A DNA stretch of 64,000 bases from Gemmobacter nectariphilus (GTDB lineage Bacteria > Pseudomonadota > Alphaproteobacteria > Rhodobacterales > Rhodobacteraceae). The notes under the pieces are model-generated. The model was given only the letters and a program-made list of their open reading frames with translations, was not told where the DNA came from and ran no database searches. A program made the translations under genes and the position numbers. Below, piece after piece: positions 13,703-21,174 of the stretch (its first letter is position 1; every line of letters begins with the position of its first letter). The DNA lies in NCBI GenBank assembly GCA_020721445.1, contig DYMU01000007.1:62001-126000 (forward strand). Reading direction: 5' to 3'.

Positions 13703-14377
13703 CTACTTTCGAGGCTTTGCTTGCCAGGTTCCCAGCCACGACCGGAACCGCGCCCAGGTGCCCATCGCGCGATCACGCGCGGCGTCGGCGCGGGCGTCAA
13801 CCGAGTCCCATACCTCGCCCACATCTTCCAGCGCCGGGTCGATCGTGCGTTCGCGAAACTGCGCCCACATCCGCCACAACAGCAAGAACACCAGACCCAT
13901 GAAGACGAAGAAGAAGATGTTGAACCATGGCACGATGGTGACATCCGCTGACGCGACCGGGTAGACGGCGACCGCATTGGGGAAAATCGAGATCAGCTCG
14001 TTGCGCCAGCCATAATGCGTGACCACCGCCCATTTCGGGGCCTCGACGGTGGATTTCAGGTCATCAGCCTCGGTCTGCAAGCTGGCGGTGTCGAACTTGA
14101 AATAGGGTGGCCAACTCCACGCGGTATCTTCGTTGCGATAGACCATCGGTTTGCCATCCGGGCGCACCGATTGAATGAACTGCACATCGCGGCTGGTGAT
14201 GGTTGCAGATTGATCATCCGGGCGCGACCAGAAGATCCGTGTCCAGTCGCGCAACTCTTGCCGTTCCTGATAGGTGCCGACGATGCGCACAATGTCATGC
14301 TGCGGCAAGGTGTAGTGCAGGAACGACCCGAAAATCAGAAGGATGGTGGCCACAAAGGCCCATTTGAAATATCGCAT
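13703..14377 (-). CDS. DUF1523 family membrane protein
   Basis: About 224 aa from ATG 14377. Transmembrane helix 1 lies at residues 6-24 (WAFVATILLIFGSFLHYTL), followed by a roughly 130-residue periplasmic domain with the DUF1523 features RIVGTYQERQELRDWTRIFW and the TRDVQFI region. Helix 2 is near 152-172 (WFNIFFFVFMGLVFLLLWRMW), and the tail is a charged cytoplasmic helix. It is the last gene of the AAA+ operon, 7 bases after the 92-aa membrane protein. Function unknown. Confidence 0.75.
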   Translation of the reverse strand: MRYFKWAFVATILLIFGSFLHYTLPQHDIVRIVGTYQERQELRDWTRIFWSRPDDQSATITSRDVQFIQSVRPDGKPMVYRNEDTAWSWPPYFKFDTASLQTEADDLKSTVEAPKWAVVTHYGWRNELISIFPNAVAVYPVASADVTIVPWFNIFFFVFMGLVFLLLWRMWAQFRERTIDPALEDVGEVWDSVDARADAARDRAMGTWARFRSWLGTWQAKPRK

Positions 14378-14384
14378 CACTGCC

Positions 14385-14663
14385 TCACGCGTAATTGACC
14401 AGATATAAGAGCGTCCCGATTGCGATGAAAGGCAACACGATAACGCCCCACAGGAGCTTTCGTCGCAGGCTGCCCTCATAGTCGGCCATGCCCTGCGCAA
14501 TGAACGCAGATCGCCCGTCATCGGTTGCGTCGGGCGGAGGGTCGGCGTCCCATTCTTTTTCCAGCGCTTCGCGGCGCAGCGATCGGGAATAGATCAACAG
14601 CAACCAGTAAGCGACGCCGGCGAATACCGCCCAGAATGCCATCAGCCGCAGAAAGCCTATCAT
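14385..14663 (-). CDS. Small two-helix membrane protein of the AAA+ operon
   Basis: 92 aa: helix at residues 5-24, a soluble acidic middle (SRSLRREALEKEWDADPPPD ... MADYEGSLRRK), helix at 70-90. Its ATG overlaps the stop of the DUF6638-like gene (ATGA), so it is translationally coupled. No family recognised. It probably sits with the DUF1523 protein as a membrane anchor of the operon's product. Confidence 0.68.
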   Translation of the reverse strand: MIGFLRLMAFWAVFAGVAYWLLLIYSRSLRREALEKEWDADPPPDATDDGRSAFIAQGMADYEGSLRRKLLWGVIVLPFIAIGTLLYLVNYA

Positions 14664-16021
14664 TTTCGCCCCCGTGACGCACGTCCCCAGGGACCAGCCA
14701 CCGGCCCAAGATCACGGGCGGGTTTCGGCTCTGGCCTTTGGCGGTCGTCCATGCCCGGCTCTGGCCCGAAAAGGGACTCACGTGCGCCTTGCTTGTCGAC
14801 AACATACTCTCGTTCCAGAAAATCCGCCACATATTGCCGCTTGCGGTCAGACCAGCGGGTATATTGGGCGTAGAACAGCTCTTTGTGGACGATATACATC
14901 TGCCGCACGTCCATCGGCGCCAGTTCCGACAACAGCATGTTGACCAGATCGCGGTCTTTGTGCGCCCGCGCACGCAGGGTGTAGAAATAGGCCGGATGTT
15001 CGCTGGTGATGCGCGGCCATGTCCCTCCGGCCTCGATCCAGCGCAACAGGGCGGCCAGCCCCTGAAACTCCATCGGCAGGCTGGCGCCCAGCCGGTGCGC
15101 GATCTTGCGCAGTTCGGTGCGGCGGGCATCACCGATCTCCAGCCCAAGGGTATCGGCGGCCTCGACCAGAATGAAATCCATCTTCTGCCGGATCACCGCC
15201 GCCGCATCCATGCCCCGCGCCTGCACGATGGGTTCGGCCAGTTGATTGCGCTCCAGCCAGTCGGCAATCTGGTTGCGATGGCCAAGGTCGAACACTGGCG
15301 CAATCGGCACCGCACCAAGGCTTTCGTGCGGCAGGGTCGAGATCACGGCGGGAAAGGCCACATCGCGGAACACATACATGCCGCCGAAATGGCTGGTCCA
15401 GAAGTTCGGCTGCTCGAACGTCATTTGCGGCAGGGTGATCGGCACCCGCGTCACATCGCCGGTCTTTTTGGCCAGCGTGATCATCTCGGCAATCAGCAGA
15501 TCATCGCGCCAGCCATCGGCCTCAGAGCGAAAGCGGTCAATCAGCTTGGCCAGCTTGCCCGCATCGGCAACATGGCCGCCAATCGTATCGGCCTCGACCG
15601 TGATGCGCCGGATCTCCAGCAGCTTGGCGGGGGTGCTGATTTCAAACACCGAGTTCTGCAATTCCCCCGCCACCGCATCGCGGGCGGTCAGGGCAAACAA
15701 CTGCGCCTCGTTGGTTTCAATGAACTGCCGGATGATCCCGCGAGAGGTGGAGAACTTGGCGTTCAGCAGGGGTGCTGTCTTTTGCGCCGTGCTCAGCAGA
15801 ATGAACTGCCGGTTCGCGCCATTGGGGTTGAGGTAGAGGTCGTCGCCAAGCTCGGCCCCGATTTCGGGGGAATAGCCGGAAATGTCGATGTGGAAATCTG
15901 TAAGCGCGGTTTCGCGGCCGCACAGATGCTTCATGGCGCGCTTGTAACGGTCGATCAGGGCGGGGGAGGACACCTCGATCAGGTTGCCGAACATCAGACC
16001 TTTGGCGATGAGGCGTTTCAT
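14660..16021 (-). CDS. DUF6638-like protein of the AAA+ operon
   Basis: About 453 aa, soluble, with no signal peptide. It begins MKRLIAKGLMFGNLIEV, and a conserved-looking HIDISGYSPEIGAELGDDLYLNPNG stretch follows near residues 43-67. The C-terminal part is charged. I believe this matches the family catalogued as DUF6638, but the number is from memory. The ATG overlaps the TGA of the DUF559 gene (ATGA); originally it must have overlapped the lipoprotein stop, because a second, diverged copy of its first 14 codons lies at 16690-16730. Function unknown. Confidence 0.65.
   Translation of the reverse strand: MKRLIAKGLMFGNLIEVSSPALIDRYKRAMKHLCGRETALTDFHIDISGYSPEIGAELGDDLYLNPNGANRQFILLSTAQKTAPLLNAKFSTSRGIIRQFIETNEAQLFALTARDAVAGELQNSVFEISTPAKLLEIRRITVEADTIGGHVADAGKLAKLIDRFRSEADGWRDDLLIAEMITLAKKTGDVTRVPITLPQMTFEQPNFWTSHFGGMYVFRDVAFPAVISTLPHESLGAVPIAPVFDLGHRNQIADWLERNQLAEPIVQARGMDAAAVIRQKMDFILVEAADTLGLEIGDARRTELRKIAHRLGASLPMEFQGLAALLRWIEAGGTWPRITSEHPAYFYTLRARAHKDRDLVNMLLSELAPMDVRQMYIVHKELFYAQYTRWSDRKRQYVADFLEREYVVDKQGARESLFGPEPGMDDRQRPEPKPARDLGPVAGPWGRASRGRK
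15981..16021. repeat. Downstream copy of the 41-bp direct repeat (live gene start)
   Basis: First 41 bases of the DUF6638-like gene. Aligned with 16690-16730, 33 of 41 positions are identical and all substitutions keep the frame (MKRLIAKGLMFGNL against MKRAVAKGLMFGSL). Together the copies bracket the DUF559 cassette. Confidence 0.75.
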
Positions 16022-16527
16022 GGGGTTGGTCCTTCTGGTGGGGTGGCTGGCTGCTGGCCCTCCACCCCTGACCCCTCCCCACAAGGGGGAGGGGAAGCGC
16101 CCGGTTTGGGTGCTCTGCGTGACGGAGCCGATGTCGCCGCTCCCTCCCCCCTCGTGGGGGAGGGATGGGGTGGGGGGGCATCCGCCGCCTCCAGCCAATC
16201 AAGCACTACCTGCATCACGCCATCCAAATTACCATCCACATCGTTGTTCCAGACCCGCAAAACGTTGAAACCTTGTGCGATGAACCACCCATCCCGCACC
16301 GCGTCCGCCGCCCCGCCGTGCTGGCCGCCATCAACCTCGATCACCAGCTTGCGGCCAAAATCGGCGAAGTCTGCGATGTAAGGGCCGACAGCGGCCTGCC
16401 TGCGAAAGTTCAGCCCCAGCCGATGGTTCAGATCGCGAAGCTGCGCCCAGAGTTTGCGTTCCTGCGGGGTCATTTCGGCCCGCAGGGTTCGCGCGCGTTG
16501 GCGGGTTTGGGGGGTGATGCTGGTCAT
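16018..16527 (-). CDS. DUF559 domain protein (Vsr/PD-(D/E)XK-type endonuclease-like)
   Basis: About 169 aa from ATG 16527. Residues 5-115 carry the DUF559 pattern: ARTLRAEMTPQERKLWAQLRD, then FRRQAAVGPYIADFAD, KLVIEVDGGQH and GFNVLRVWNNDV. The D..E.D residues match a restriction-endonuclease-like nuclease core. The last 50 or so codons run through the palindromic repeats and are Pro/Gly/Arg low complexity (PPHPSPTRGEG). Start and stop both form ATGA overlaps with flanking frames. It interrupts an otherwise compact operon and is probably mobile. Confidence 0.8.
   Translation of the reverse strand: MTSITPQTRQRARTLRAEMTPQERKLWAQLRDLNHRLGLNFRRQAAVGPYIADFADFGRKLVIEVDGGQHGGAADAVRDGWFIAQGFNVLRVWNNDVDGNLDGVMQVVLDWLEAADAPPPHPSPTRGEGAATSAPSRRAPKPGASPPPCGEGSGVEGQQPATPPEGPTP
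16062..16177. repeat. Pair of opposed GC-rich palindromes, left of DUF559 core
   Basis: Element 1 (16062-16094): CCCCTCCCC pairs with GGGGGAGGGG across a short loop. Element 2 (16141-16177): TCCCTCCCCC pairs with GGGGGAGGGA, followed by TGGGGTGGGG. The two are in opposite orientation. Both are translated inside the C-terminus of the DUF559 frame. Confidence 0.75.
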
Positions 16528-16550
16528 GCGGTGCACCTGATGACGCCGGC

Positions 16551-16672
16551 CCCCCACCCCAACCCTCCCCACGAGGGGGAGGGAGGGACCAGACGCCAGC
16601 CACCAGCGCCCCCGCCGACCGGTGAAGCAGCGCCTCCCCTCCCCCTTGTGGGGAGGGATGGGGTGGGGGGCG
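16551..16672. repeat. Second pair of opposed GC-rich palindromes
   Basis: Element 3 (16551-16590) repeats element 1 in the same orientation (CCACCCCAACCCTCCCCACGA with a GGGGGAGGG arm). Element 4 (16634-16672) repeats element 2. The spacers within the two pairs differ in sequence, so the pairs are related only through the palindromes. Confidence 0.75.
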
Positions 16673-16689
16673 GTGGAGGACACCCCATC

Positions 16690-16730
16690 AGACTGCCGAA
16701 CATCAGGCCTTTGGCGACAGCACGTTTCAT
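16690..16730. repeat. Upstream copy of the 41-bp direct repeat (relic gene start)
   Basis: 33/41 identical to 15981-16021. It directly follows the lipoprotein gene and shares its TCAT (ATGA on the minus strand) junction, marking where the DUF6638-like gene originally began. Confidence 0.75.
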
Positions 16731-17038
16731 TCACTTAACTCTGTTTTCACAATTGTCCCATCAGCCAGTGAAACATAATAATTTACATCGCCGCCAACCC
16801 AAGCCAGCCCGTCAACATCCCGCAGAAAATACGACACTTTGACTAGATCACCGCACTGCAGTAATATTGGTTCCTGATAACGTTCTCCGAAATCGACCGG
16901 AATTTCTGTCGCAATCGACGCCAGAGCACGCGTCTGAACGTGGGGCGGCACGGCATCGGTACATCGTTCCGAGGCCGACGGCATGCATGCCGAAAGGCCA
17001 ATTGTCCCAAGGGCAAAAATTCCAACGGTCGGCTTCAC
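16727..17038 (-). CDS. Small lipoprotein of the AAA+ operon
   Basis: 103 aa. The short signal peptide MKPTVGIFALGTIGLSAC ends in a lipobox (LSAC, lipidated Cys at residue 18). The mature part is about 85 residues, mostly beta-like with two further Cys (CTD, LQCGD) that could form a disulfide. ATG overlaps the AAA+ ATPase stop by four bases. It implies that the operon reaches the periplasm or an envelope face. No family recognised. Confidence 0.7.
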   Translation of the reverse strand: MKPTVGIFALGTIGLSACMPSASERCTDAVPPHVQTRALASIATEIPVDFGERYQEPILLQCGDLVKVSYFLRDVDGLAWVGGDVNYYVSLADGTIVKTELSE

Positions 17039-18960
17039 CCCTTCCCCTCCAGATACCGCCGCTTGGCCTCTTCCGTCCGCCGGTAGTCCCGCACCATCCC
17101 CTCAATCGCCACTTCATCCGACTTATCGGCATAGCGGAACTCGCTGTCGGCGTAGCGGTTGACCTCCTGGATCACCATTTCCACCGTGATGGGGCTCATC
17201 AGGCCGCGGATCATGGTCAGCTTTTCGTCGTAGGGTTTGAACAGGAACAGGTCGGGGTTTTCCATCCATTCGTCGGGCAGTTCGAAGTCCATCGCCCGCA
17301 CCTTGACTGCATCGGTGATGTTCTTGATGGCGCGGCCGGTGAAGCGGTCATCGGCCTCTTGAATGGCTTTCAGGTAGCGACCGATTTTGGCAATGGTATC
17401 CAGCGGGCCGATGTCGGACGCTACCTTGTCCCAGACCCGCAGCAGGCCGTCTTCGTGCGGTTTGGAATGACCCTCAAAACTGGCGGCGACGGCTTTCTTG
17501 ATCTCTTGCGCGGCAAACAGGTCATGGTCGCCCAAGGGGATCTGGTGGTTCTTGCCCAGCAGCAGCGACAGGATATCAATGTAATCTTCGCGCGTTTTCG
17601 GGCCATCGACGAGGAAGCGCGCACCGGCCCGCTGGCGCAGGGCGTCGTCCACATTCTCGGGGTAGTTGGAAAACATGCCGAAGGTGCAATTGCCGCGCAC
17701 CACGGTGCCTGCGCCGGCAAAGGCCTGCATGAAGACCGCCGTTACCTCTTGCTGGCCCGCCGATGACTGCCGGTCACCGCGCTTGCCTGCGACCTGATCA
17801 ATGTCGTCGATGGTGCCAAAGCCGATCACGCCGGGGTCAAGGACCGAGTCGATAAACGCCTTGGCGTTCTGGCCCGACTTGCCCTGATAGCTGTCGATCT
17901 GGTCGATACTGAAGTTCTGATAGCGGAAGGGGTAGCCCGCAACGGTGCAATAGTCGTTCAGCAGGCCCGCCATCATCTGAATCAGCGTGGTCTTGCCGGT
18001 GCCGGGTTTGCCGTCGCCCATGAAGGTAAAGATGAAGCCACCGAGTTCGGCAAACGGGTTCAGCTTGCGGTCAAAGTCATAGGCCATCAGCATCTTGGCC
18101 AGCCGCAGGGACTGGTATTTGGCGATGTGGTTGCCCACCACTTCATGCGGTTTTTTGAACTGCATGGTGATCTGGCCACCCTTGGCGGCACGGGCGGGTT
18201 TGAAGCCGGCGATGGTCAGACCATCGGCCTCGACCTTCCAACTGGCCCCCGTGAACGCCTCTAGCCTTGGCGCGGTCTGGGCGCGCAGGGCCAGCTTTTC
18301 CATCAGCGCCTCGGCAAAGGCAGCGACGGTGGCGGCAAGGCGCGGCTCGTCAGTGGCGAAGGTGGCGATGTCCTGATCCAGCTCCCACAGCACGCCCTGA
18401 AGGGCGAGCGGGGCGTTGTCGGTCAGGATTTCATCAACGGTGCCGACCTCGACCGTGGTCGCGGTCAGGTGTGGGGCCAAGAGATACGCGGTGGCATTGG
18501 CGAAGGTATACAGCACCAGCAATGCCTCGGCGGCCAACAGGTCGGTGAACTCGGCGCGCTTCAGGTCGGGCAGGCGGCCCTCCAGATTGGCCTTCTTCAA
18601 CTCGACCAGCGCCGATTGCGCGGCAAAGGTCTCGCCCATGGCCAAGGCGATGGCCAGCGAGCGGCGCAGGGCGTGCAGGACGGACGCCTGCAAGGGTGAG
18701 ATCAGGCCATCGGTGCCGGATTCAATCCGCTCGACGATCCGCACGCCGCCGGGGCGGATGGTGGGGCGGGTGACAAGGCCGGGGGTGGTGGACCGGAAGC
18801 GGGGCCGCGTGCCGATGCCGGGGCTGCGTTCGGCCTGCGGGGCCTCCAGCGCCTTTGCCAGACGGGGGGCGTGGTCAAAGCCGGTCAGCAGCGCCAAGGC
18901 CGCGTCATACTGTGCGCGGATCGCGTCTTCCTTCAACTCCATCGTGTCGCGTGTGGTCAT
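17035..18960 (-). CDS. AAA+ ATPase of an uncharacterised operon
   Basis: 641 aa. Residues 1-270 are a mainly helical family-specific region. The AAA+ core spans about 300-500: Walker A GDGKPGTGKTT (Lys near 323), Walker B VIGFGTIDDID (acidic residues near 385-388), sensor-1 segment FGMFSNYPENVDD (Asn near 432), and an Arg-rich RQRAGARF (near 442-449) as arginine finger. The C-terminal lid is helical. No protease, helicase or transmembrane segment is seen, which suggests a remodelling ATPase. Nine bases separate it from the upstream 376-aa protein gene. Confidence 0.8.
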   Translation of the reverse strand: MTTRDTMELKEDAIRAQYDAALALLTGFDHAPRLAKALEAPQAERSPGIGTRPRFRSTTPGLVTRPTIRPGGVRIVERIESGTDGLISPLQASVLHALRRSLAIALAMGETFAAQSALVELKKANLEGRLPDLKRAEFTDLLAAEALLVLYTFANATAYLLAPHLTATTVEVGTVDEILTDNAPLALQGVLWELDQDIATFATDEPRLAATVAAFAEALMEKLALRAQTAPRLEAFTGASWKVEADGLTIAGFKPARAAKGGQITMQFKKPHEVVGNHIAKYQSLRLAKMLMAYDFDRKLNPFAELGGFIFTFMGDGKPGTGKTTLIQMMAGLLNDYCTVAGYPFRYQNFSIDQIDSYQGKSGQNAKAFIDSVLDPGVIGFGTIDDIDQVAGKRGDRQSSAGQQEVTAVFMQAFAGAGTVVRGNCTFGMFSNYPENVDDALRQRAGARFLVDGPKTREDYIDILSLLLGKNHQIPLGDHDLFAAQEIKKAVAASFEGHSKPHEDGLLRVWDKVASDIGPLDTIAKIGRYLKAIQEADDRFTGRAIKNITDAVKVRAMDFELPDEWMENPDLFLFKPYDEKLTMIRGLMSPITVEMVIQEVNRYADSEFRYADKSDEVAIEGMVRDYRRTEEAKRRYLEGKG

Positions 18961-18969
18961 TCTGGCCCC

Positions 18970-20100
18970 CTACCGTGTTGCAATGATCCGCCCCCCGGCA
19001 CCCACCACAAACTTGCGCACGTCGCGAAAGCCCGGCGGGTTCAATTCGGCCAAGGCCTGAAACGGCCTCTCGGGCAGCACGACCATGCGCTCCATCTTCG
19101 TGGTGCCGGTCTCGGCCCCCTTGCCGGCAAAGGGATCGAGCGCGAAAATCTGCCGCTCCACCGTGCTGAACCAGCCATCCTTGACCTGTTCCACCCGGTC
19201 TGACAGCAGGTCTTCCACCGTCCAGACCATCGCCCAATCCTGACCTTCCGGCGCCATGGCGGTGGCCAGCACATCGGAAATCGGCCCCGATTGCAGGGTG
19301 AAACTGTGCGAATACATCGGGCCAAGGTGGATGCGCCGCAGCCGTTTGGGGTGCAGCGTGTCAAAATCGGTGTCAAAGCCCTGGGCGATGGTCAGCAGCT
19401 TCAGCCCGGCACTTGATTGCGCCATCAGGTGATGCTGGGCTTGCGGCCAGCGGCTTTCGTCGGTCGGCAACGGGCGCTTGCCGCTGTCTTCCACGTCCAT
19501 CAGATAGACTACCGGCAGGTTGATCTGGGTATCGTAAATCGCCCAATGCACCAGATAATGGCGGCGGTCTTTCGTATCTTCAAGCCATTGGGCATCGGGG
19601 TCATTGCGGGCCAGAAACAGCCCGCCCTGTGCCAAAGCCTCGTAGTACAGCCGCTGCGACAGGGCGAATTGCAGGTCAGTCGGCAAGGCCAGATCGCCGA
19701 CGATGCGGCGGATCATCCGGTCCTTCAACTCCTCAACCGACGCCGTGCCCGACAGGTGGCGGTCGGCCTGTGCGGCATCCACCGCCATCACCATCAATTC
19801 CTGCGCCACCGGAAAGCCGGATTCGTGGCGGTCAAAGGTCAGGCGCTGTGCGGCGTCGCTGCGCCCCGTCATCAGGTACTTGTAGGACAGCGCCCGAAAC
19901 GTGGTGGCAAGGGCGGTGACATAGCGGCCAATCACCCGCGCTTCGGTGCGGGTAAGCTGACCTTGGGATTCCAACTCGCCCGCAACCCGGCCCAGATGGG
20001 CCGAGATGCGGTCAAACTTGGCGAAATAGCGCCGGGCGATCAGCGTGTCATACAGCTCGGCATGGTCGTTGGTTAGCGCCTCTTTGACGGTGTTGGACAC
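18970..20100 (-). CDS. Uncharacterised soluble protein of the AAA+ operon
   Basis: 376 aa with no signal peptide or membrane segment. The N-terminal 150 residues are helical and basic; the C-terminal half is mixed alpha/beta (YLVHWAIYDTQINLPVVYLMDVED, LGPMYSHSFTLQSGPI, FVVGAGGRIIATR). The start codon follows the stop of the coiled-coil gene with no gap. It has no recognised family and is probably an adaptor or effector of the AAA+ ATPase. Confidence 0.68.
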   Translation of the reverse strand: MSNTVKEALTNDHAELYDTLIARRYFAKFDRISAHLGRVAGELESQGQLTRTEARVIGRYVTALATTFRALSYKYLMTGRSDAAQRLTFDRHESGFPVAQELMVMAVDAAQADRHLSGTASVEELKDRMIRRIVGDLALPTDLQFALSQRLYYEALAQGGLFLARNDPDAQWLEDTKDRRHYLVHWAIYDTQINLPVVYLMDVEDSGKRPLPTDESRWPQAQHHLMAQSSAGLKLLTIAQGFDTDFDTLHPKRLRRIHLGPMYSHSFTLQSGPISDVLATAMAPEGQDWAMVWTVEDLLSDRVEQVKDGWFSTVERQIFALDPFAGKGAETGTTKMERMVVLPERPFQALAELNPPGFRDVRKFVVGAGGRIIATR

Positions 20101-21174
20101 TTATTCCCCATAGGCGTTCTTGTCGTGCTTCTCGACGATCGCCGCAAACCGGCGGTTGAAACGCTCATCCGCCTTGGCCTTTTGCTCAAGGATCTTGCGG
20201 GCAAACACCATATGGCCTTCGTGGGCCTCCAGCATGTCGGCCATTCGGTCATTGGTGGCCGAACCGATGGCAGCCATGGCGGCCTGCGCCTCTTGGTCGG
20301 TTTTCACACCGATTTCGTTGATCCTGTGCGCCACATCTTGCTGTTGCGCGGTTTTCAGGCTGCTGGACAGCGCGTCATACAGCACCACGCGCTGCTTGGT
20401 GTCGGTCTGCAACTTGTTGATCAGCACCAATTGGGTGGCTGCCTGATTTTGCAGAGAGTCCATCCAGGTCTTGCCCTTTTCGATATAGCGTTCAAGGGTT
20501 TGACTTTTGGCCAGCTTCACCTGTTCATCCTGCACTAGCGCGTTGTAACGCGTGTTCAACTCGGCCAGTTGGGTTTCCAGCTTGGTGCGGGCGGCGGCGT
20601 CTTGCTCGACACTGATCTTGTTCTCCAACTCGATGATCTGCGGGTCCATCCCGGCGATCTCGGCCCGCACGCCTTCAAGCGCGCCCACGGTTTCCTCACG
20701 CTCGACCAAGGTGGCCGACAGGTTGGATTCGACACTGGCCTTCTGACCGTTCAACAGGTCAAGCTGGCCTTGCAGCAGTTTTACGATCACATCCGACTTG
20801 GCGATCAGATCCTGCAACTTGTCGTCGATGCTGGCGGTGCGCATCCGTTCCTGCCGCATCGATTCTGCCTTTGCGCTGCTGAAGATGCCGATGAAACTTT
20901 CCATGCCGGTCTTCGAGCGCATCTCGTCAAAGTCCTTGGAAAACCCCGCCGTCACATCGTCCAGCCCCATGATCAGTTCGGCGATATTTGCGTTCATCAG
21001 ATCGGTGTGCCTGTGCACATCGTCCAGCGTGGCGTTTTCGATGTCGATGGCGGCCTCGCCTGCCTCAAGCCTTTGCCGCGCCACCTCAATCTCGCTGGTC
21101 ACGGCGCTGATCTTGGCCTGCGCTTCGGCCACCTGTTTCTGGCTTTCCTGAATCTGCGTGTTGAAATCGGCCAT
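20101..21174 (-). CDS. Long coiled-coil protein, first gene of the AAA+ operon
   Basis: About 357 aa from ATG 21174 (AGGGGG 4 bases upstream). It is almost entirely alpha-helical with heptad character: segments 1-60, 100-190 and 190-250 are rich in Gln, Glu, Lys, Ala and Leu. A short less helical hinge (TGMESFIGIFSSAKAE) lies near residues 85-100. There is no membrane segment. Such a rod next to an AAA+ ATPase recalls PspA/ESCRT-type or TelA-type helical proteins, but I see no motif that settles this. Confidence 0.68.
   Translation of the reverse strand: MADFNTQIQESQKQVAEAQAKISAVTSEIEVARQRLEAGEAAIDIENATLDDVHRHTDLMNANIAELIMGLDDVTAGFSKDFDEMRSKTGMESFIGIFSSAKAESMRQERMRTASIDDKLQDLIAKSDVIVKLLQGQLDLLNGQKASVESNLSATLVEREETVGALEGVRAEIAGMDPQIIELENKISVEQDAAARTKLETQLAELNTRYNALVQDEQVKLAKSQTLERYIEKGKTWMDSLQNQAATQLVLINKLQTDTKQRVVLYDALSSSLKTAQQQDVAHRINEIGVKTDQEAQAAMAAIGSATNDRMADMLEAHEGHMVFARKILEQKAKADERFNRRFAAIVEKHDKNAYGE

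Follow-up and report, generated by a model that had tools for sequence, protein, structure and literature searches.

A conserved AAA+ operon with a variable gene slot in Gemmobacter nectariphilus, tentatively read as an inner-membrane defence platform

The minus strand of a 64,000-nucleotide window of Gemmobacter nectariphilus DNA (contig DYMU01000007.1, positions 62,001 to 126,000; coordinates without a locus or genome label are those of the window) carries a tightly packed operon at 13703 to 21174, in which the gene of an AAA+ ATPase (g3) stands among g1, g2, g4 to g7, and a cassette with a DUF559 gene. The question raised by this locus is whether it encodes a dedicated machine and what such a machine would serve. 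An ATP-driven inner-membrane complex is suggested by the conserved gene order, the membrane partners, and the motor, and, because conflict-type or membrane genes directly behind the motor gene are gained or replaced from species to species, a role in defence is favoured. The products would thus form a stable complex serving as a platform for cell defence, against phages or in other intracellular conflict, a reading that we hold tentatively, at slightly under an even chance. A more specific version is plausible but less secure: an undescribed four-protein, ATP-driven inner-membrane defence platform, two core proteins of which have no match among solved folds, would fire exchangeable effectors from a slot translationally coupled to the AAA+ gene, with the weapon swapped and the trigger kept.

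Conservation of the operon and definition of its core

All seven genes and the cassette were present as open reading frames (ORFs) in the order g1, g2, g3, g4, DUF559 cassette, g5, g6, g7. They were packed as a preliminary description of the locus had it, with gaps of 0 to 9 bases (g1/g2 0, g2/g3 9, and g6/g7 4 to 7 bases) or 4-base overlaps (g3/g4, DUF559 stop/g5 start, and g5/g6), the cassette region excepted. The core is g1-g2-g3-g5, namely, g1 for a putative rod of 357 amino acids (aa; 20101 to 21174), g2 for an alpha/beta protein of 376 aa with a GTG start (18970 to 20100), g3 for the AAA+ ATPase of 641 aa (PF00004, Pfam 3.2e-11; 17035 to 18960), and g5 for a DUF6638 protein of 453 aa (PF20343, Pfam 2.2e-208; 14660 to 16021). 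Downstream lie g6, of 92 aa (14385 to 14663), and g7, a DUF1523 gene (PF07509, Pfam 4.1e-71; 13703 to 14380 with a GTG start or to 14377 with an ATG start). On a simple hydropathy scale, two hydrophobic segments each were found in g6 and g7, those of g7 about 120 aa apart, and none in g1 to g5, in agreement with the two small membrane proteins noted earlier. Four of the eight operon proteins (g1, g2, g4, and g6) had no Pfam match over the cut-off.

The order and strand of g1-g2-g3-g5 were kept in 32 of 32 untruncated loci of a whole-genome set, with g6 in 24 and g7 in 25 of them. This set was drawn from 35 regions around DUF6638 matches, of which two lay on short contigs (L047 and L056) and one (L072 in genome G273; E 6.9e-4), with two stops and the neighbouring genes absent, was dropped as a false positive. 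A second set of 80 loci came from genome_contigs, where the g3 alignment matched 460 relatives, of which the best 80 were taken; all six genes stood in order in 71 of these. Six of the nine exceptions were at contig ends (L074, L083, L096, L100, L113, and L133), and three loci had genuinely lost parts (L086, L143, and L148). Two of the 71 had core genes split in two pieces, g3 in L112 and g1 and g2 in L141, by either decay or sequencing errors. The two sets overlap in several strains, and removal of identical g3 left 101 non-redundant loci with g1, g2, g3, and g5.

The arrangement extended to distant genomes. Rhodobacteraceae (family f1) and rhizobia (family f160) are names assigned here on the basis of named relatives and of neighbouring genes in common with Sinorhizobium meliloti pSymB. 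In the rhizobial loci, a DUF2333-like membrane protein, verified by Pfam in two cases, came after g1-g2-g3-g5; one paper mentions a DUF2333 gene near an hcp3 locus and calls it uncharacterised. Plasmids of Vibrio vulnificus and Vibrio parahaemolyticus carried the bare four genes and then mfd. These plasmids (L154 and L155) are about 0.9 Mb in size and typed as non-mobilizable, and the gene adjoining their core is for an mfd-like transcription-repair coupling factor. In genome G964 (L226), from another class, the four-gene order was kept despite strong divergence (profile E values of 6.5e-11 for g1, 5.7e-7 for g2, 1.5e-64 for g3, and 2e-46 for g5), and the core was followed by two ORFs without a Pfam match that by eye resemble membrane proteins. 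Directly upstream of its g1 lies an M50B-like peptidase gene (L226:14581-15246; Pfam 1.2e-35). Genomes G353 and G964 represent one other class of the phylum, probably the Gammaproteobacteria. A membrane protein thus stood after g5 in the loci inspected, as g6 with DUF1523, DUF1523 alone (L060), or the DUF2333-like protein of rhizobia, the Vibrio plasmids excepted. The neighbours of the core were ordinary genes that recur across loci.

DUF6638, which marks the core, was found in 69 of the 149 genomes sampled from the window's family. In the genus, it was found in the genome itself and in 13 of 15 congeners, the two misses being 82 to 83% complete. It occurred in 6 of 289 genomes of the class sample (a count that includes the false positive), in 15 of 200 of the phylum sample, in 2 of 321 genomes of the class of G353, and in 10 of 72,556 plasmid records. 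The g2 profile matched 26 of 398 genomes, among them all 15 DUF6638-positive genomes of the phylum sample. Phage records searched with the g3 of the window and of Vibrio gave zero matches, and no core relatives were found in viral contigs by a pattern-based search. Repeated co-occurrence of the core, which had been set beforehand as a test, was therefore observed (32 of 32 loci, six genes in 71 of 80, and the co-presence of g2), neighbourhood conservation held across far-diverged genomes, and the kept gene order supports the view that these genes make up a dedicated system, in which a conserved AAA+ motor works with membrane partners.

The variable slot between g3 and g5

Comparison of the gaps across loci placed a variable cargo slot in the g3-g5 interval (16018 to 17038, minus strand). 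Gaps of at least 300 bp were present between g3 and g5 in 72 of the 101 non-redundant loci, between g1 and g2 in 27, and between g2 and g3 in 9, and at g5-g6 and g6-g7 in 0 of 91 each. Up to three genes were called per g3-g5 slot, with 96 ORFs co-directional with the operon and 18 opposite, or 75 and 17 for ORFs of at least 100 aa. Among these 75 co-directional ORFs, 46 started no more than 15 bases past the g3 stop and 30 exactly at -4, counts that are an upper bound because ORFs were taken from the first possible start. In L118 and L120, the cargo overlapped both neighbours by 4 bases. The slot of the window holds g4 (16727 to 17038), encoding a putative lipoprotein of 103 aa with a lipobox LSAC recognised by eye and a guanine-plus-cytosine (GC) content of 51.3%, compared to 57.6 to 63.0% in the six conserved genes. 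Although the lipoprotein had been counted in the conserved set, it is variable slot content, as is the DUF559 gene, and both the lipoprotein and the cassette lie outside the core.

Simple ORF rules served to call the cargo genes, and their grouping in classes is rough; in the following counts, "empty" and "other" are not sharply distinct. The slot was empty in 20 of 100 loci and held only unrecognised content in 20 more, and small membrane proteins were the commonest cargo class (31 of 100). Pfam and PADLOC scans covered a selection of 82 from the 120 cargo proteins of at least 85 aa (72 of 85 from g3-g5 and 10 of 35 from g1-g2 and g2-g3). Most cargo had no Pfam match; the 20 families detected included DUF559 with six members (together with its relative MTES_1575) and one member each of Mrr, TIR/ThsB, Fic, PIN_10, Schlafen AlbA_2, and AbiJ_NTD4, which we take to be conflict-type families. 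DUF433, a weak HEPN, DUF3825, a weak histidine-kinase-like ATPase, and a few weak others were also found. PADLOC recognised 29 families in the cargo, the best at 9.2e-33 among the 25 listed. As a control, 82 flank ORFs (85 to 350 aa, compared to 97 to 521 aa for cargo) matched 11 PADLOC families, with the best at 1.4e-10, and 115 Pfam families, with no conflict-type family among the 25 of 115 listed.

The cargo also differed in composition. The median GC content of soluble g3-g5 cargo was 0.13 (13 points) below that of the core (19 of 22 lower), and membrane cargo was lower by 0.05 in g3-g5 (39 of 53) and by 0.09 in g1-g2 (15 of 16). Flank ORFs, compared with g3 alone and not with g3 plus g5 as the cargo was, showed no difference (46 of 82 lower, P = 0.76).

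Species exchange the contents of the slot, and even close relatives often carry different ones. In 48 locus pairs with g3 more than 90% identical, the cargo class was shared in 12, or in 18 if "empty" and "other" were merged; recognised cargo was present in both members of 19 such pairs, and 8 of these shared the class. On the g3 tree of 100 loci, the cargo classes required 54 changes, compared to a mean of 59.8 when labels were shuffled (54 or fewer in 4 of 300 shuffles), and the merged classes 43 changes, compared to 51.1 (43 or fewer in 2 of 300), so some cargo is inherited.

Genes in the other two gaps were observed as well. A rhizobial gene between g2 and g3 (L068:6403-7230) starts 1 base past the g2 stop and by eye is the Fic cargo member. 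Small proteins of the g1-g2 gap (L103, L135, L152, L095, L081, L090, and L089) belong to a fast-changing family, the 7 being linked by profile, and several proteins of this gap end in a common C-terminal W-x-D-x-x-G-x-DRD-like sequence (by eye).

The DUF559 endonuclease gene of the window (PD-(D/E)XK/Vsr-like; 16018 to 16527, Pfam 1.1e-28) lies within an ORF of 16018 to 16734, the ATG at 16527 being the likely start. From its sequence features, the surrounding segment (15958 to 16730, minus strand) looks like a repeat-bordered mobile cassette, with G-rich palindromes (5 pattern matches compared to 0.01 expected) and two copies of the g5 5' end at 15958 to 16021 and 16668 to 16730, about 710 bases apart (repeats D1-D4 and I1-I8). 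Duplication of the g5 start beside cargo was clear in the window and in L079, weaker in L078, and seen as a small excess in L117 and L038. As a general route of cargo arrival it was rejected, the rest of the 25 of 80 loci listed being not clearly above noise. DUF559 was searched in ten genomes, eight of which had been chosen for having a slot copy. The slot copy was the sole match in three Rhodobacteraceae genomes (that of the window, G002, and G015) and in one, G595, of the six rhizobial genomes searched; G005 had none, and the remaining five genomes had 5 to 9 matches, fragments included. In an unrooted DUF559 tree, the Rhodobacteraceae slot copies fell on one side of a branch with a support of 0.98, and six rhizobial slot copies grouped, with weak inner support, among non-slot rhizobial copies; this placement suggests two separate entries of DUF559 into the same slot.

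Core proteins and a possible mode of action

The motor g3 has a classical AAA+ domain at residues 317 to 450, approximately, with N- and C-terminal regions of its own, and was best aligned with i-AAA protease and Vps4 domains. Residues K323, D385, D386, N432, R442, and R444 were invariant in 114 of 114 aligned sequences. The classical marks of Walker A (K323), sensor 1 Asn (N432), and arginine fingers (R442 and R444), reported earlier as intact, are present, but for Walker B that description needs qualifying. Here, the catalytic Glu after the Walker B Asp, expected of classical AAA+ proteins (PF00004), was not found: Asp386 aligns with the catalytic Glu of i-AAA and Vps4 in all 114 sequences. 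Despite this missing residue, the homology to classical AAA+ proteins stands because of the Pfam profile match.

Judged by its composition, g1 is probably all-helical, with a single proline (P178) that was invariant in a 16-row alignment. The AF2 model of g2 (pLDDT 87.3, pTM 0.86) had zero Foldseek matches at E ≤ 0.001 in the PDB or among viral structures, and the moderate model of g5 (pLDDT 80.4, pTM 0.73) had zero in the PDB at the same threshold. PDB sequence profiles gave nothing significant for g1, g2, and g5. Both families of unknown function in the operon are represented at full length, DUF6638 by g5 (693 bits against a gathering score of 27, profile positions 1 to 438 of 439) and DUF1523 by g7 (238.4 bits against 23, positions 1 to 176 of 176). 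In the literature searched, DUF6638 was named in no paper and DUF1523 in four; no function was reported for DUF6638, and among the results listed for combined terms none described the operon.

From complex formation to effector control, we infer the following course for a defence platform. The g3 protein would form an AAA+ ring held at the membrane through g6 and g7, or through DUF2333 in rhizobia, with g1, g2, and g5 as possible adaptors of the ring. ATP-driven remodelling, perhaps slowed by the Glu-to-Asp change in Walker B, might then control the timing of production, release, or activation of the slot product. The energy-driven inner-membrane machine proposed in the preliminary description is supported in part, as a dedicated AAA+ system with membrane partners, and nothing tested showed membrane remodelling. 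Its candidate undescribed system agrees with the literature searched, and the slot turnover with conflict-type genes, which it had missed, opens the defence reading.

Competing explanations and known systems

Several observations weigh against defence. Slots are empty in 20 of 100 loci, with a further 20 of unrecognised content only, and the Vibrio locus likewise has none, which means that the operon does not require cargo; most cargo has no Pfam family, and its commonest class is that of small membrane proteins. On the g3 tree, cargo classes cluster slightly more than shuffled labels do, the start-codon coupling is only an upper bound, and flank ORFs also match PADLOC. The core is kept in 13 of 15 congeners beside ordinary genes, unlike the hopping of most defence systems, and copies of it were not found in the phage records or viral contigs searched. 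With PADLOC 2.0.0, zero models matched core proteins at E below 5e-4, the top scores being TRIP13 at 7.5e-4 (AAA domain) and LmuB at 0.0016 (coil).

An AAA+ inner-membrane stress or assembly machine with a housekeeping task is almost as likely, because some slots are empty, the genus retains the core, and no copy of it was found in the viral collections searched. The slot would then only tolerate the landing of genes that were acquired horizontally and gain expression from the operon promoter. The recurrent ordinary neighbours, the unrelated kinds of cargo, and the membrane protein after g5 in the loci inspected, replaced by mfd in the Vibrio plasmids, are consistent with such a machine. Less easily accommodated are the avoidance of g5-g6 and g6-g7 by insertions (0 of 91), although the same promoter is on offer there, and the largely conflict-type nature of the recognised cargo, unlike the flank genes as far as the 25 of 115 control families listed. 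If the slot genes are effectors, the operon would represent a new modular immune design and its slot a source of new toxin and defence proteins. Otherwise, a membrane machine of the AAA+ type, common in these bacteria, is still to be given a function, and an explanation is needed for the strict preference of the insertions for their site.

An assignment to one of the known families for membrane remodelling or tellurite, either PspA/ESCRT-III with a Vps4-like ATPase or TelA/Ter, is improbable. The affinity of g3 to i-AAA protease and Vps4 domains, the long and probably helical g1, and a colinear local profile match of g1 to TelA (138 columns, E 0.0017 in a single comparison) point in that direction. 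The hhalign probability was, however, 15% local and 0.6% global for g1-TelA and 4.9% local and 1.4% global for g1-PspA, with 7.8% for the control of TelA against PspA, and neither PF05816 nor PF04012 was among the Pfam matches of the window g1. Moreover, a true TelA is encoded elsewhere in the window genome (G000:C50:58789-59781; E 3.8e-104), and a PspA match was absent from that genome. The kinship of g1 with PspA was rejected on the profile comparison and the missing PF04012 match, and the PspA resemblance noted earlier is not supported. The Tel/Ter resemblance is supported only very weakly, and Pfam found no Ter-type domain in any of the eight operon proteins.

A variant of the nucleoside triphosphate-dependent conflict systems with variable effectors, such as the vWA-MoxR ternary systems, has a similarly small chance. 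Their published account (PMC7159879) describes a similar principle, in which variable effector domains are combined with an AAA+ core. The operon is not a vWA-MoxR member, as the defining features fail: Pfam found neither vWA nor MoxR in the operon proteins, the AAA domain is PF00004, and the cargo here is in separate genes. Chance adjacency of unrelated genes is already refuted by the neighbourhood data, since, the three loci with lost parts notwithstanding, the order is kept across wide divergence and all 15 DUF6638-positive genomes of the phylum sample are g2-positive.

Among known systems, BREX-type multi-gene systems are ATPase-containing operons with accessory defence genes inside, as in this operon. 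They differ in that no PADLOC model reached a core protein below the threshold given above. The DUF559 domain of the slot cassette recurs in the Caulobacter Vsr-like endonuclease VsrA, which is functionally linked to a solitary cytosine methyltransferase and not to this operon (PMC12907096). Core defence hotspots of Pseudomonas aeruginosa likewise hold variable conflict genes at a fixed chromosomal place; those regions, with median sizes of 26 and 6 kb, take up whole systems (PMC10250203), whereas the operon slot takes up one to three genes, mostly on the same strand. The vWA-MoxR/FtsH ternary systems (PMC7159879) share the AAA+ core and the variable effectors, and their FtsH class has extra alpha-helical proteins; in the operon, found mainly in Rhodobacteraceae and rhizobia, the variable genes are separate and stand in a fixed slot.

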